This document shows positions 24,631 to 29,955 of a DNA stretch of 46,919 nt, piece by piece. The DNA is taken from the NCBI RefSeq assembly GCF_003426815.1, contig NZ_QKYK01000039.1, forward strand, positions 1-46,919, in the 5' to 3' direction. The number at the start of each line of letters is the position of its first letter. Position 1 is the first letter of the stretch. A program made the translations under genes and the position numbers. This DNA is from Desertimonas flava. GTDB lineage: Bacteria; Actinomycetota; Acidimicrobiia; Acidimicrobiales; Ilumatobacteraceae. The notes under the pieces were generated by a model. The model saw only the letters and a program-made list of their open reading frames with translations, searched no databases and was not told the origin of the DNA.

Positions 24631-26525
24631 CCGCTCGGGAGCCCGGCCCGCCGGGGGAGATCGACCGGCACCTGTTCAACGAAGGCACGCACCGGTTCGT
24701 CCACCACACGCTCGGTGCCCACGCCGACGAGACCGGCGTGTGGTTCTCGGTCTGGGCGCCCGCGGCGCAGCGCGTCGACGTCGTCGGCGACTTCGGCGGT
24801 TGGCAGACGCCACACCGGCTCGAACCGGTCGACTCGTCGGGCATCTGGTCCGGTCACGTCGACGGCGCCCACGTCGGGCAGGCCTACCGCTTCGGCATCA
24901 CCGGCCCCGACGGGCTGCGCACCGAGCGATCGGACCCGGTCGCCGCGGCCAACCACCTCCCTCCGTCCACCGCCTCCATCGTCGCCGATCTCTCGTACGA
25001 GTGGCACGACGCCGCATGGATGGGCTCACGGGGCAGCCGCATCGACCCCCGTTCACCGGTGTCGGTCTACGAGGTCCATCTCGGATCGTGGGGCCGGATC
25101 GCCGTGCCCAACCGACGCTGGCCGCGCTACGACGAGCTGGCCGAGTCGCTCGCCGACCACGCCGAGGCGCACGGATTCACCCACGTCGAACTGATGCCGA
25201 TCATGGAGCACCCGTTCTACGGGTCGTGGGGGTATCAGACGACCGGCTACTTCGCGCCGACGTCCCGATACGGCTCTCCCACCGACCTGATGCGGATGAT
25301 CGACGTCCTGCACCAGCGCGGCATCGGGGTCATCGTGGACTGGGTGCCGTCGCACTTCCCCATCGACGGTCACGCGCTCGCTCGTTTCGACGGCACCCAT
25401 CTCTACGAGCACGCCGATCCTCGCCAGGGGTTCCATCCCGACTGGACGTCGGCGATCTTCAACTACGGTCGCCCCGAGGTTCGCTCGTTCCTCGTGTCGA
25501 GCGCACTGTCCTGGCTCGAGCACTACCACGTCGACGGCATCCGCGTCGACGCCGTGGCGTCGATGCTCTATCTCGACTACTCGCGCGAGCCCGGCGAATG
25601 GGTGCCCAACGTGCACGGCGGGCGCGAGAACCTCGAGGCGATCGACTTTCTCCGCCAGCTCAACACGGCGGTGGCCGCCGAGTTCCCGGGCACGGCGACG
25701 ATCGCCGAGGAGTCGACGGCGTGGCCGCAGGTGACCGGGCCGGTCGAGGCCGGCGGTCTGGGCTTCACCTACAAGTGGGACATGGGCTGGATGCACGACA
25801 CGTTGCACTACCTCAGCCGTGACCCGGTGCACCGCCGCTTCCATCACGACGAGGTGACGTTCCGCAACGTCTACGCCTTCAGCGAGCGCTACGTGCTCCC
25901 GCTGTCGCACGACGAGGTGGTGCACGGCAAGGGCTCTCTGCTCGGCAAGATGCCGGGCGACGAGTGGCAGCGCCGGGCCAATCTGCGCCTGCTGTACGGC
26001 ACGATGTGGGGTCAGCCGGGCAAGAAGCTGCTGTTCATGGGCGGCGAGCTGGCGGCGCTCTCCGAGTGGGATCACGAGTCGACGCTCGACTGGGACCTCC
26101 ACGACGCTCCCGGCCACGAGGGCGTGCGTCGCCTCGTCGCCGATCTTAACGCCGTCTACGCGAAGGAACCGGCCCTCCATCGCGGGGACGCCGCGGTCGA
26201 CGGCGCCGGCGGCATGCAATACGTCATCGGCGACGACGACACCCACAGCGTGTTCGCCTGGCTGCGCATCGATCCGGTCGGTGAGGCCCCCGACGTCCTC
26301 GTCGTGGCGAACGCCACACCGACGGTGCACCACGGGTACCGGGTCGGGGTCCCCGTCGCCGGAGCCTGGGCCGAGATCATCAACACCGACTCCGATCTCT
26401 ACGGCGGAAGCGGCCTCGGCAACCTCGGTGTGGTGCGCTCCGACGGTCAGGCGTGGCACGGCTACGACCAGTCGTTGGTGCTCACGCTCCCCCCGCTCGC
26501 CGTGATCTTCCTCCGCGCCCAATAG
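24627..26525 (+). CDS. glgB: 1,4-alpha-glucan branching enzyme GlgB (short form)
   Basis: A 632-residue GH13 branching enzyme that cuts an alpha-1,4 chain and rejoins it as an alpha-1,6 branch. One N-terminal CBM48 is seen (VWFSVWAPAAQRVDVVGDFGGWQ). The barrel has nucleophile Asp308 (GIRVDAVASMLYLDYSR), acid Glu361 (TIAEESTAWP) and Asp429 (LSHDEVVHGKGSLLGKMPGD). The protein is about 100 residues shorter than the common actinobacterial GlgB, which carries an extra N-terminal beta domain. The start is set by the ATGA overlap with malQ; a much longer open frame upstream is only the malQ shadow. No glgA, glgC or glgP is present in the window. Confidence 0.93.
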   Translation: MTAREPGPPGEIDRHLFNEGTHRFVHHTLGAHADETGVWFSVWAPAAQRVDVVGDFGGWQTPHRLEPVDSSGIWSGHVDGAHVGQAYRFGITGPDGLRTERSDPVAAANHLPPSTASIVADLSYEWHDAAWMGSRGSRIDPRSPVSVYEVHLGSWGRIAVPNRRWPRYDELAESLADHAEAHGFTHVELMPIMEHPFYGSWGYQTTGYFAPTSRYGSPTDLMRMIDVLHQRGIGVIVDWVPSHFPIDGHALARFDGTHLYEHADPRQGFHPDWTSAIFNYGRPEVRSFLVSSALSWLEHYHVDGIRVDAVASMLYLDYSREPGEWVPNVHGGRENLEAIDFLRQLNTAVAAEFPGTATIAEESTAWPQVTGPVEAGGLGFTYKWDMGWMHDTLHYLSRDPVHRRFHHDEVTFRNVYAFSERYVLPLSHDEVVHGKGSLLGKMPGDEWQRRANLRLLYGTMWGQPGKKLLFMGGELAALSEWDHESTLDWDLHDAPGHEGVRRLVADLNAVYAKEPALHRGDAAVDGAGGMQYVIGDDDTHSVFAWLRIDPVGEAPDVLVVANATPTVHHGYRVGVPVAGAWAEIINTDSDLYGGSGLGNLGVVRSDGQAWHGYDQSLVLTLPPLAVIFLRAQ

Positions 26526-26528
26526 GGG

Positions 26529-27314
26529 TCAGCGTCCGGAGTGGGCGCCGCCGTTGACGTGCACCACCTGGGCCGTGATGTGGGCGGCGCCGGGTGAGGC
26601 GAGGAAGGCGATGACCGAGGCGACGTCGTCGGGAGTGCCGGCCCGGCCGGTCGCCGTGGCGGCGACGAGGCGCATCCGTCGCTCGTCGGACAGGCGGCCA
26701 CGGAAGAACTCGGTGTCGACGATCAGGCCCGGCGCGACGAGGTTGACGGTGATGCCGTCACGGCCGACGTCAGCGGCGAGCGACACCGTCCACGACTCGA
26801 GCGCGGCCTTGGCGGCGCCGTAGGAGCCGGCCCCCCTCGGCGAGGCGATCGATCCGACGTTGACGATGCGACCACCCGCCCCCATACGCGGACGCAGGGC
26901 GGTCGTGGTCAAGACCGCAGTGAGGACGTTGGCGGCCCAGTTGCGGTTCCACACGTCGGCGGTCGCCGTCAGCTCGTCGGCCCCGTCCGGCACGCCGTCG
27001 AAATCGGTGTTGCCGCCAGCGTTGTTGACCAGAACGTCGATCTGCTCGGGCAACGCGGCGACGACGGCCGCCACCCCGTCCGGAGTCGCGAGGTCACCGG
27101 CGACCGGCGTCGCGGCGATGGCCGCCGCCGTCTCCTGCAACGGGCCGGCGCGCCGGCCGACGATGTACACATCGGCGCCCCCGGCGGCGAACGCCGCAGC
27201 CGTCGCCCGACCGATTCCCGTCCCGCCGCCGGTGACGACGACCGTCCGGACGGTCCCGCTCGTCCTGCTCGTCCCGCTCGTCCCGCTCGTCATCGTGTCG
27301 TCCGGCGTCGTCAT
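26529..27314 (-). CDS. SDR family NAD(P)-dependent oxidoreductase
   Basis: A 261-residue classical short-chain dehydrogenase, likely a 3-oxoacyl-ACP-reductase-like or secondary alcohol dehydrogenase. The cofactor motif is TGGGTGIGRA near residue 29, NNAG follows at LVNNAGGN, the catalytic Ser is in VGSIASPRG and the Tyr-Lys pair is in SYGAAKAAL. The C-terminal PGLIVDTEFF is usual. The first ~20 residues are a low-complexity SGTSGTSRTSGT stretch encoded by 9-bp repeats. The ATG at 27314 lies seven bases after a TACAGT -10. It is divergent from a MarR gene and an inverted repeat covers both promoters, so it is probably under MarR repression. Confidence 0.88.
   Translation of the reverse strand: MTTPDDTMTSGTSGTSRTSGTVRTVVVTGGGTGIGRATAAAFAAGGADVYIVGRRAGPLQETAAAIAATPVAGDLATPDGVAAVVAALPEQIDVLVNNAGGNTDFDGVPDGADELTATADVWNRNWAANVLTAVLTTTALRPRMGAGGRIVNVGSIASPRGAGSYGAAKAALESWTVSLAADVGRDGITVNLVAPGLIVDTEFFRGRLSDERRMRLVAATATGRAGTPDDVASVIAFLASPGAAHITAQVVHVNGGAHSGR
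27255..27290. repeat. 9-bp tandem repeat at the SDR gene 5' end
   Basis: Four copies of CCCGCTCGT (one with a T) encode the Ser-Gly-Thr run near the SDR N-terminus. Unit length keeps the frame. Confidence 0.65.
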
Positions 27315-27321
27315 GACAGAT

Positions 27322-27327
27322 ACTGTA
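27322..27327 (-). promoter_or_regulatory. Leaderless -10 element TACAGT for the SDR gene
   Basis: TACAGT on the minus strand, seven bases, then ATG at 27314. Confidence 0.55.
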
Positions 27328-27331
27328 GTGC

Positions 27332-27337
27332 TAAAGT
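27332..27337 (+). promoter_or_regulatory. Leaderless -10 element TAAAGT for the MarR gene
   Basis: TAAAGT, six bases, then GTG at 27344; no space exists for a ribosome site. Confidence 0.55.
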
Positions 27338-27343
27338 ATCTGG

Positions 27344-27871
27344 GTGCCCACCGGTGAGATCGAGCGTGACGACGTCGACGAGATCCAAGCGGCGTGGGCT
27401 CGGGAACAACCCGGCGTGCCGGTGGCGTCGATCGGGGTGATCACGCGGATCTGGCGCATCGCCCGCCTACTCGACGACGACCGCCGATCCACGATGCGAC
27501 GCCTGGGGATGGACGTGCCGACGCGCAACGTGCTGAGCACGCTCCGGCGGGCCGGCGCCCCGTACTCGCTGACCGCATCGGAGCTCGCCCGCCGGGCCGG
27601 GGTGACGCCCGCCGCCGTCTCCCAGTGGGTGGCGCGCGCCGAGGCCGACGGGCTGGTGACACGGCGACGCCACACCGTCGGCGACACTCGCCAGGTCGAC
27701 GTGTCCCTCACCGAGCGCGGCCGCGAGCGCATCGACGGTGTCGTCGCCGAACTGCTCCGCCACGAGGACGACCTGGTGGCCGGACTCGACCCAGACGAGG
27801 TCGAGCAACTGTCCGCGTCGTTGCGGACGTTCCTCGCCTCGCTGACGGCCCGCAAGGCGCGATCGTCCTAG
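27344..27871 (+). CDS. MarR family transcriptional regulator
   Basis: A 175-residue winged-helix regulator. The core runs from VITRIWRIARLLDDDRRSTMRRLGMDVPTRNVLSTLRRAG to the recognition helix LTASELARRAGVTPAAVSQWVARAEADGLVTRRR, and the wing is HTVGDTRQVDVSLTERGRERI. It should bind the inverted repeat that precedes it and respond to a small ligand. The GTG at 27344 lies two bases after the operator and six after a TAAAGT -10, so the transcript is probably leaderless. Its TAG stop and that of the opposing HxlR gene share the palindrome CTAG, a 4-bp tail-to-tail overlap. Confidence 0.9.
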   Translation: MPTGEIERDDVDEIQAAWAREQPGVPVASIGVITRIWRIARLLDDDRRSTMRRLGMDVPTRNVLSTLRRAGAPYSLTASELARRAGVTPAAVSQWVARAEADGLVTRRRHTVGDTRQVDVSLTERGRERIDGVVAELLRHEDDLVAGLDPDEVEQLSASLRTFLASLTARKARSS

Positions 27872-28323
27872 TTCGCCGCCGCGGCCTCCGCGGCCTCGTA
27901 GCGGGCGCGCGCCGCGGCGATCTCGGCCTGGTGCGTCTCGGTCCACTGCACCAGGCAGTCGGTGATCTCGAGCAGCGTGCACCCGAGATCGGTCAGCTCG
28001 TAGTCGACCCGCGGCGGCACGACGGGGTAGACGGTCCGCGAGATGAGACCGTCGCGCTCCAGGTGACGGAGCGTGAGGGTGAGCATGCGCTGGCTGATGC
28101 CGTCGATCTCGCGGCGCAGTTCGGAGAAGCGGAGCGTGCGCCGCGCCAGCAACGAGATGACCAGCAGCGACCACTTGTCGGCGATGCGGTCGAGGATCTG
28201 GCGCACCTCGCAGTCCTGGCGTTTGTCCCACTGGATCGCGTCACGTTCGAACGCCGCCGCTCGGCGGTCGTCGGCCTCGGTACCGTCGCAGTCACTCGGT
28301 TCTCGCGATGTGCCTTCTTCCAT
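27868..28323 (-). CDS. HxlR family transcriptional regulator
   Basis: A 151-residue winged-helix protein. The HxlR domain runs from DCEVRQILDRIADKWSLLVISLLARRTLRFSELRREIDGISQRMLTLTLRHLERDGLISR to VDYELTDLG. Cys38, at the start of the domain, is the position where redox-sensing HxlR proteins carry their reactive thiol. The first ~35 residues are an acidic extension. The ATG at 28323 was chosen because the DNA-binding domain follows it; a very long open frame upstream is antisense to the transporter gene. It is divergent from an MFS exporter and a short inverted repeat lies between, so it probably represses that exporter. Confidence 0.88.
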   Translation of the reverse strand: MEEGTSREPSDCDGTEADDRRAAAFERDAIQWDKRQDCEVRQILDRIADKWSLLVISLLARRTLRFSELRREIDGISQRMLTLTLRHLERDGLISRTVYPVVPPRVDYELTDLGCTLLEITDCLVQWTETHQAEIAAARARYEAAEAAAAN

Positions 28324-28352
28324 CGGCAGCCAGTCTGTCGCACAATGGCCAC

Positions 28353-28369
28353 AGTTACAAGAAGGAACT
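28353..28369. promoter_or_regulatory. Candidate HxlR operator
   Basis: AGTTAC and GGAACT are near-inverted copies (5 of 6) around AAGAA, in the 81-bp gap between the HxlR and MFS genes. It is the only symmetric AT-containing site there. Confidence 0.4.
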
Positions 28370-28404
28370 GACCCCCCGATCGAGAACCGAGAACCCGAGT
28401 CGTC

Positions 28405-29955
28405 ATGACGTCGCCGCCCTCCATCACCACCACCACACCGCCGACCACACCGTCCATCACACCGTCCCCGATCCCGTCGCGGTCCCCCGCGCCCTCCCGC
28501 CTGCTCACCGGCCACGACCGCACGATCCTGTTCGTGCTGTGCGGCGCGATCTTCCTCGAGGGGATCGACGTGGCGATGCTCAACGTCGCCCTGCCATCGA
28601 TCCGCGCCGACCTCGACCTGTCGACCGGCATGCTCAGCGCGGTCGTCGCCGCCTACGTGCTGGGCTACGGCGGCTTCATGCTCCTCGGCGGCTCGGCCGC
28701 CGACCGGTTCGGGCGGCGCCGGATGTTCGTCGGCTGGCTGGGCGTGTTCGTCGTCTTCTCCGGTCTCGGCGGCCTCGCCACCGACGGATGGATGCTGCTG
28801 CTCGCCCGCTTCGTCACCGGCGTGGCGGCGGCGTTCATGACGCCCGCCGGCCTGTCGCTCATCACGACGAACTTCGCCGAGGGACCAGTGCGCAACAAGG
28901 CGCTGGTCATCTACGGGGCCACCGGCGCCGCCGGTTTCTCCCTCGGCCTCGTCGCCGGCGGGTTGCTCACCGAGATCAGCTGGCGCTGGGTGTTCTTCGC
29001 CCCGGTGATCATCTCGGCGACGCTGCTGGTGCTCGCCATCCGGGTGATCCGCGACGTGCCGACCCCACCGCGCCCCGGCCGCTTCGACCTGCCGGGCGGG
29101 GTCACCCTCACCGCCGGCGCCGTCGCCGTCGTCTACGCCATCACGCGGCTCGAACATCCCGGCGACGCACCCGTCCTCACCGCCGCCCTCTTCGTCGCCG
29201 GAGCCACGCTGCTCGCCGTCTTCGTCCGCATCCAGCGGCGGACCACGAGTCCACTGCTCCGGCTCGGGCTGCTGCGCACGCCGGCGCTCGCCCGGGCGAA
29301 CACGACGGCGCTGCTCTACGCCGCGGCGTTCTTCGGGTTCCAGTTCCTGGCCACGATCTACCTCCAGGAGCTGCTCGGTTGGAGCTCCCTGCAGACCGGC
29401 CTGGCGATGGTCGTGATGGCGATCGACGGCATCATCGCCCCGACGTTGACCCCGAGGCTCGTGCGCCGATACGGGAACTCGAGGGTGATCCTCAGCGGCA
29501 CGCTGTTCGCCGCCGTCGGCTACCTCCTGTTCCTCCGGCTCTCGCTCGACTGGACGTACGCGGCGATGTTCCCGACGTTCGTGCTGATCGGCCTCGGCTT
29601 CTCGTTCGCCTACGGCCCGCTGGCGATCGCCGCCACCGACGGGGTCAGCGAACACGAACAGGGAGTGGCCGGGGCGCTGCTCAACACCGCCTTCCAGTTC
29701 GGCGCCGCCCTCGGGGTGGCTCTCGTCAGCGCGGTCAACGTGCTCCGACTCGACGACGACCCGACGCCCGCGGCCGAGATCGACGCCATCCGTGTGGCCC
29801 TCGTCGTGTCGGTCGTCGCCGCCTTCGGCGCCGCTGCGGTCATCGCCACGGGCGTCCGCCGGTCAACGAGGCCGAGCGAGGTACACGAGCGGGCTGACGC
29901 CGACGTGCGCCGTGAAGTCCCGCGTGAAGTGTGCCTGGTCGAACCAGCCGAGTGA
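28405..29955 (+). CDS. MFS drug exporter, DHA2 (EmrB/QacA) type
   Basis: A 516-residue membrane transporter, probably a proton-coupled multidrug exporter with about 14 helices. The N-terminal 30 residues are Thr/Ser/Pro-rich. Motif A is GGSAADRFGRRRMFV after helix 2, the motif-D1-like DVAMLNVALPSI is in helix 1, and the motif-C region is GATGAAGFSLGLVAGGLL. It is divergent from the HxlR regulator, which suggests induction by a toxic compound. The last ~30 residues follow the final helix and are encoded antisense to the AraC gene, with which it overlaps by 93 bp tail-to-tail. Confidence 0.88.
   Translation: MTSPPSITTTTPPTTPSITPSPIPSRSPAPSRLLTGHDRTILFVLCGAIFLEGIDVAMLNVALPSIRADLDLSTGMLSAVVAAYVLGYGGFMLLGGSAADRFGRRRMFVGWLGVFVVFSGLGGLATDGWMLLLARFVTGVAAAFMTPAGLSLITTNFAEGPVRNKALVIYGATGAAGFSLGLVAGGLLTEISWRWVFFAPVIISATLLVLAIRVIRDVPTPPRPGRFDLPGGVTLTAGAVAVVYAITRLEHPGDAPVLTAALFVAGATLLAVFVRIQRRTTSPLLRLGLLRTPALARANTTALLYAAAFFGFQFLATIYLQELLGWSSLQTGLAMVVMAIDGIIAPTLTPRLVRRYGNSRVILSGTLFAAVGYLLFLRLSLDWTYAAMFPTFVLIGLGFSFAYGPLAIAATDGVSEHEQGVAGALLNTAFQFGAALGVALVSAVNVLRLDDDPTPAAEIDAIRVALVVSVVAAFGAAAVIATGVRRSTRPSEVHERADADVRREVPREVCLVEPAE

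Follow-up and report, generated by a model that had tools for sequence, protein, structure and literature searches.

A palindrome between divergent SDR and MarR genes of Desertimonas flava as a probable shared operator over two closely packed putative promoters

The question raised by this locus is whether a single site can control two promoters when the genes that they drive stand back to back, only 29 bp apart, with a palindrome taking up nearly all of the gap. The locus lies in the window analysed here, that is, the whole stretch of 46,919 nucleotides from Desertimonas flava (contig NZ_QKYK01000039.1), and the layout of a divergent SDR gene and MarR gene with one shared intergenic palindrome points to a divergon.

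26529–27314, minus strand: classical SDR oxidoreductase of 261 aa (Pfam adh_short_C2, E 1.2e-41; alignment of three sequences)
27344–27871, plus strand: MarR-family regulator of 175 aa with a GTG start (Pfam MarR_2, E 5.2e-10; open reading frame)
27317–27342, no strand assigned: proposed MarR operator, a 26-bp imperfect palindrome with perfect 8-bp arms (sequence and conservation of the core)

We regard it as likely, on the sequence evidence set out below, that MarR binds this dyad and blocks both promoters, that a ligand releases MarR, and that the two mRNAs are most probably leaderless. Binding, repression, the ligand and the RNA 5′ ends are what we infer; the palindrome, its conservation, the leaderless signature and the geometry of the hexamers are computed.

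The SDR carries TGGGTGIG, which is of the TGxxxGIG type that forms the cofactor motif, together with Ser-Tyr-Lys, the hallmark of classical SDRs. In an alignment of three sequences, the residues T28, G29, G33, I34, G35, S155, Y165 and K169 are invariant, and the solved structures closest in sequence are FabG-type reductases. Because the same alignment gives the window SDR a 20-residue N-terminal extension relative to its two orthologues, its start is not certain and may lie at 27314 or at the in-frame ATG at 27293. Part of this Thr/Ser/Gly-rich extension, which the two orthologues lack, is encoded by a 9-bp tandem repeat at 27253–27291 (GTCCCGCTC, 4.3 copies). The winged-helix domain of the MarR protein is matched above cut-off by both PF12802 (E 5.2e-10) and PF01047 (E 2.2e-07), and the solved MarR structures closest to it in sequence are 8ylh and 8ylf. 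A TAA at 27332 closes the MarR frame four codons upstream of the GTG, and an earlier protein start is therefore impossible. The flanking open reading frames end convergently on the pair, a plus-strand frame at 26525 and an HxlR-type minus-strand frame at 27868, the stop of the latter overlapping that of the MarR gene; SDR and MarR therefore form a closed two-gene unit in the window. Adjoining the MarR gene, at 27868–29955, the gene for the HxlR-type regulator domain (minus strand) and one for an MFS transporter (28405–29955, plus strand) diverge from each other and are a second possible regulator-target pair.

The palindrome reads CAGATACT GTAGTGCTAA AGTATCTG at 27317–27342, as a whole CAGATACTGTAGTGCTAAAGTATCTG. 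The original prediction of a perfect 8-bp inverted repeat with a 10-bp spacer is borne out by the sequence (CAGATACT-N10-AGTATCTG, arms at 27317–27324 and 27335–27342), and the spacer adds a TAG..CTA match, bringing the 26-mer to 11 of 13 dyad pairs. Both starts had also been placed correctly within 2 bp of the repeat, with two bases between the left arm and the SDR ATG (27314, minus strand) and one between the right arm and the MarR GTG (27344, plus strand). Inverted repeats are common in the window, however, and symmetry alone therefore proves little: perfect 8-bp repeats with a spacer of 0–20 occur at 65 places, against a mean of 46 (sd 6) in 40 shuffles, and a dyad with 11 or more matching pairs out of 13 is shown by six 26-mers, that at 27317–27342 among them, against 0–7 in 40 shuffles. 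Inverted repeats whose arms have a GC content of 40% or less are unusual in this GC-rich window; there are two, against 0.075 expected, the other being found at 2704–2729 (AACCATAC-N6-GTATGGTT). Allowing up to three mismatches, the arm pattern is absent from all 100 shuffles of the window, and in the 6.22-Mb genome it occurs at 27317–27342 and at one further place, with three mismatches and without the TAG..CTA core; with the core added to the pattern, at the same tolerance, 27317–27342 is the sole match in the genome. A single genomic site fits a local switch.

It is thus conservation that carries the case. A contig scan with the window MarR as single query found no relative, while an alignment of three MarR proteins succeeded, and the wider scan queried with that alignment confirmed 484 relatives. 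The best 80 of these were kept, and they include proteins from Ruania (64% identity), Amycolatopsis, Saccharopolyspora, Streptomyces and Nocardia. The addition of the window, L038 and five MarR relatives retrieved by genome searches gives 87 loci, in which L004, the same record as L071, is counted once, and L092 and L093, whose core was missed in an 82-locus scan in which the SDR match ran past it, are included. A locus was taken as SDR-linked when it held an SDR relative with E below 1e-20, and the core TTTAGNNCTAAA was then sought up to 200 bp upstream of the SDR. At least 8 of its 10 letters are matched in 63 of the 64 SDR-linked loci, window included, at least 9 in 59 and all 10 in 42; L071, with 7 of 10, is the sole exception. 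Upstream of the MarR gene, on the other hand, which is where the 23 loci without an SDR were scored, no core of at least 8 of 10 letters is found (0 of 23), and shuffled stretches lead one to expect 0.8 matches for the SDR-linked group and 0.3 for the group without SDR; since the consensus had been derived beforehand from the same loci, only the contrast with other loci and with shuffles is informative. Among 29 further MarR loci outside this count, 26 could be scored, none of them with the core, and three were left unplaced by tblastn. Three of the 23 loci without an SDR (L053, L061 and L107) group with SDR-linked loci on the MarR tree, and these have no core either.

The arrangement of the genes is informative as to which of them the core follows. 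In the 82-locus scan, window included, 56 loci are divergent, 18 have no SDR and eight are laid out otherwise. The co-directional loci L081, L089, L091 and L095 and the convergent L056 have an exact core before the SDR and none that was found at the MarR gene, and in the convergent Saccharopolyspora loci L063 and L065 the core before the SDR is one letter off, and there, too, none was found at the MarR gene. As the core stays with the SDR in these non-divergent loci, the SDR gene would be the constant target and MarR's own gene a frequent second one. In Amycolatopsis circi, the SDR-MarR locus occurs twice on one contig, in opposite orientation (L046 and L048). Six loci with MarR and no SDR (L040, L041, L110, L112, L113 and L114) have other palindromes when inspected by eye, of the TCTTGA..TCAAGA or CTTCC..GGAAG types, which suggests that operator classes may follow MarR subfamilies. 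Judged by these comparisons, the window pair belongs to an SDR-MarR module that is widespread in actinobacteria, and neither the module nor its operator is described in the titles and abstract openings that our literature searches returned.

Within the palindrome lie two hexamers that would serve as −10 elements.

27332–27337, plus strand: −10-like hexamer TAAAGT of marR, 6 nt before the GTG and preceded by TG at 27329–27330
27322–27327, minus strand: proposed leaderless −10 TACAGT of the SDR gene, 7 nt before the ATG

Both hexamers straddle an edge of the spacer, half of each belonging to an arm, and the first T stands 12 bp (marR) or 13 bp (SDR) upstream of the start. A TANNNT about 12 bp upstream of a start has been read as the mark of a leaderless gene, a class that makes up about 20% of genes in Actinobacteria (PMC3160421), and no Shine-Dalgarno sequence is visible before either start in the window. 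The genome itself favours this geometry. On the 380-kb contig C23, TANNNT stands 6–9 nt before an in-frame ATG or GTG in 46 of 191 predicted open reading frames, against 1, 6, 4 and 4 in equally wide control bands, these frames having been picked crudely (longest open frames, GC-rich third positions, any in-frame ATG or GTG in the first 40%); a histogram by single distances over 217 frames, window included, likewise peaks at 6–9 nt, so that both gaps in the window, 6 and 7 nt, fall inside the peak. The signature is present on both sides in nine of 40 divergent neighbour pairs of C23, of which one, 16 kb apart, is not a real pair; in the remaining eight, 20 to 158 bp separate the two starts, and back-to-back leaderless-like genes are thus ordinary in this genome. 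A tighter pair than that of the window is found at L124:9190–9210 of the same genome, where divergent frames start 20 bp apart, both leaderless-like and neither regulator-like by eye.

Taken together, these data allow a mechanism to be proposed. A MarR dimer would sit on the dyad through the core TAG-NN-CTA inside TTTAGNNCTAAA-type half-sites, and would there cover the −10 elements of both divergent promoters and exclude RNA polymerase, thus repressing its own gene along with that of the SDR until a small molecule, probably the SDR substrate or a relative of it, releases the protein; both mRNAs would most likely begin at their start codons. With the −10-like elements only 4 bp apart, two polymerases should also exclude each other. 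The predicted operator is supported by the contrast between SDR-linked and other loci, the predicted leaderless starts by the hexamer distances, the TAA at 27332 and the missing Shine-Dalgarno sequences, and the proposal that one site of about 30 bp overlies both putative promoters agrees with the geometry, both TANNNT hexamers overlapping the arms.

Relatives of the pair bear on how this arrangement may have come to Desertimonas. MarR relatives (E 1e-10) occur in 42 of 200 family genomes, own genome included, and apart from the latter only the MarR of G078 reaches 50% identity in that search. The same locus is found as L071 in an Acidimicrobiaceae MAG (NZZV01000114.1); compared with the window, its MarR is 49% and its SDR 43% identical, and in G078 both genes run in the same direction, the stop of one overlapping the start of the next. 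The SDR ATG of G078/L071 is immediately preceded by CAGATAGCTTCGTGCTAAGCTATCTGC (CAGATA..TATCTG), which shares 20 of 26 letters with the window site in one orientation and 18 of 26 in the other and is palindromic in 22 of 26 letters, and a TAAGCT 6 nt before that ATG gives this gene a leaderless-like geometry. A motif built from these two sites is found in 2 of 221 family genomes, namely those two, with no control matches, which makes horizontal acquisition a reasonable reading. Searches at other ranks returned, for the SDR, the own genome and one partial match in 298 order genomes (E 1e-40) and, for MarR, five genomes, own included, both in 395 class genomes (E 1e-20) and in 396 phylum genomes (E 1e-24). 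In a tree made by a quick method, with SH-aLRT as sole support, the window MarR is sister to Ruania (SH-aLRT 99), in the company of loci treated below as class I, and L071 is a long, more distant branch.

A closer comparison is offered by a set of loci, here called class I, that were picked for a MarR start 8–9 nt after the core. These are 21 of the 56 divergent loci, window included; they comprise Ruania and both copies from A. circi (L046 and L048, in one genome), and for L057 the second of two core-like copies was used. In the other 35 loci the MarR start does not lie 8–9 nt after the core or was not resolved, and on the MarR tree the class I label needs two changes. The marR hexamer TAAAGT is common to the other 20 class I loci, in a class picked for geometry from the 56, and TAAA[GC]T ends 6–7 nt before the MarR start by construction. 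A TG precedes this −10 in 16 of the 21, the window among them. A consensus scan of both strands found no sigma-70-type promoter matching at least 9 of 12 letters and no recognisable −35, and any −35 elements would fall inside the coding sequence of the opposite gene; the TG may compensate for the absent match. The same letters, read on the reverse strand, provide another candidate element for the SDR gene.

27333–27338, minus strand: alternative SDR −10 TACTTT, overlapping the marR −10 (TANNNT at this position in all 21 class I loci)

This element opens an alternative that we hold to be rather unlikely, though it deserves serious weight, namely a bidirectional promoter with a shared −10, in which TAAAGTA drives a leaderless marR from 27344 and TACTTT, read backwards, drives the SDR from 27326. 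The two starts would then lie 18 bp apart, in place of the 30 bp between 27314 and 27344 if both are leaderless, and the SDR mRNA would have a 12-nt leader without a Shine-Dalgarno sequence; MarR would still repress both genes. The arrangement recurs throughout class I, where the reverse strand reads TACTTT or TAGTTT in all 21 loci with predicted separations of 18–19 bp, and in 17 of them AAGGA begins at the second nucleotide of the predicted SDR RNA. An SD-like stretch lies further on in three more, giving 20 of 21. Bacterial bidirectional promoters have been defined as divergent starts 7–25 bp apart with overlapping −10 elements, and 18 bp is their usual spacing (PMC10268837); they resemble the shared −10 in that one element is usable on both strands, and differ in having been recognised from mapped start sites, without a repressor dyad that shares their letters. 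Against a shared −10 in the window stand the predicted SDR leader, which makes the window the sole class I locus without an SD-like stretch for the SDR, the second hexamer TACAGT at the spacing that the leaderless-like genes of this genome favour, and the leaderless-like geometry of the SDR in G078/L071. The prediction of two leaderless promoters is supported by the hexamer geometry and by the lack of a Shine-Dalgarno sequence in the window, with two amendments: the SDR mRNA could begin at 27326, and in 20 of the 21 loci of nearest geometry the SDR gene has an SD-like stretch.

Two further explanations concern the palindrome itself. That another regulator binds it in place of MarR, such as the nearby HxlR-type protein (minus strand, frame ending at 27868), we consider very improbable: its HxlR domain (Pfam E 6.7e-27) is indeed encoded just past the MarR gene, yet the core follows the SDR-MarR pair, and the flanking frames vary in orientation and spacing in the 11 loci examined. 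Slightly less credible still is that the repeat is due to chance, or that it works at the RNA level as a hairpin or as a terminator. Inverted repeats of such length are frequent in the window, as noted above, but the placement of this one is conserved across loci, a search for a terminator-like site found none, and the repeat would be untranscribed if transcripts begin at 27314 and 27344.

Returning to a MarR operator over two leaderless starts, the comparison with class I suggests that the dyad may have additional roles. In the relatives, the left half-site can double, through AAGGA, as the Shine-Dalgarno sequence of the SDR gene. In the window, the SDR strand of this half-site has the sequence CTACAGTATCTG, which can act as a further −10 instead, so that the window, which lacks a Shine-Dalgarno sequence where relatives have one, may have turned it into a −10. 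A tentative proposal, to which we give slightly less than even weight, is therefore that one dyad does several jobs, with one half-site providing the −10 of both genes, while the other serves relatives as a Shine-Dalgarno sequence and the window as an additional −10. The left half-site as second −10 would fit a proposed history in which the SDR gene changed from leadered to leaderless inside a preserved dyad.

Autorepression by MarR regulators, combined with repression of a divergent gene from a palindrome, is well documented, and parts of the present design are found in the published accounts of four systems. The ForZ-forAA divergon of Streptomyces formicae also has a MarR regulator with a divergent partner, a leaderless regulator gene and an imperfect inverted repeat reported as the sole genomic site (PMC12421854). 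Its partner, on the other hand, is an exporter, its site covers the start site of the partner and overlaps the forZ −35, and ForZ is proposed to activate itself, whereas the window site covers both −10-like hexamers (PMC12421854). CrtR of Corynebacterium glutamicum, which stands divergent to the crt operon, is likewise a MarR repressor with a small regulon, a gene reported as leaderless and a motif overlapping promoter elements; it differs in having about 200 bp between the genes, a crtE leader of 114 nt and a short TTAA motif (PMC5401885). EstR of Agrobacterium tumefaciens represses itself and the divergent enzyme gene estC by covering promoter elements, as is proposed here, but does so with two operators, −35 elements 19 bases apart and an oxidation-sensing cysteine (PMC5201249). 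CtcS of Streptomyces aureofaciens binds between its own gene and the divergent ctcR, over possible −10 and −35 elements, and differs in its two protected regions (PMC6905112) and in its partner, an efflux pump gene (according to PMC12421854); the available text of PMC6905112 does not contain the word leaderless. Repression of a leaderless operon through an inverted repeat has been reported for AnsR (PMC9145765). What is different here is the economy, some 30 bp holding the two −10s together with the two starts, and the window pair is thus a neat and compact variant of a familiar design, not a new principle.

The wider meaning lies in the module and in its history. An SDR-MarR module with a recognisable operator, TTTAGNNCTAAA, is conserved in actinobacteria, and if the reading of a dyad with several jobs is true, the window would contain a switch of some 30 bp in which scarcely a base could be spared, and would record a change from an SD-led to a leaderless gene within an operator that kept its symmetry. 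Such loci would form a natural set for comparison, in which the same type of operator accompanies an SD-led gene in some members and its leaderless counterpart in others, so that the evolution of leaderless starts and the competition of promoters within one dyad would become testable with short synthetic promoters.
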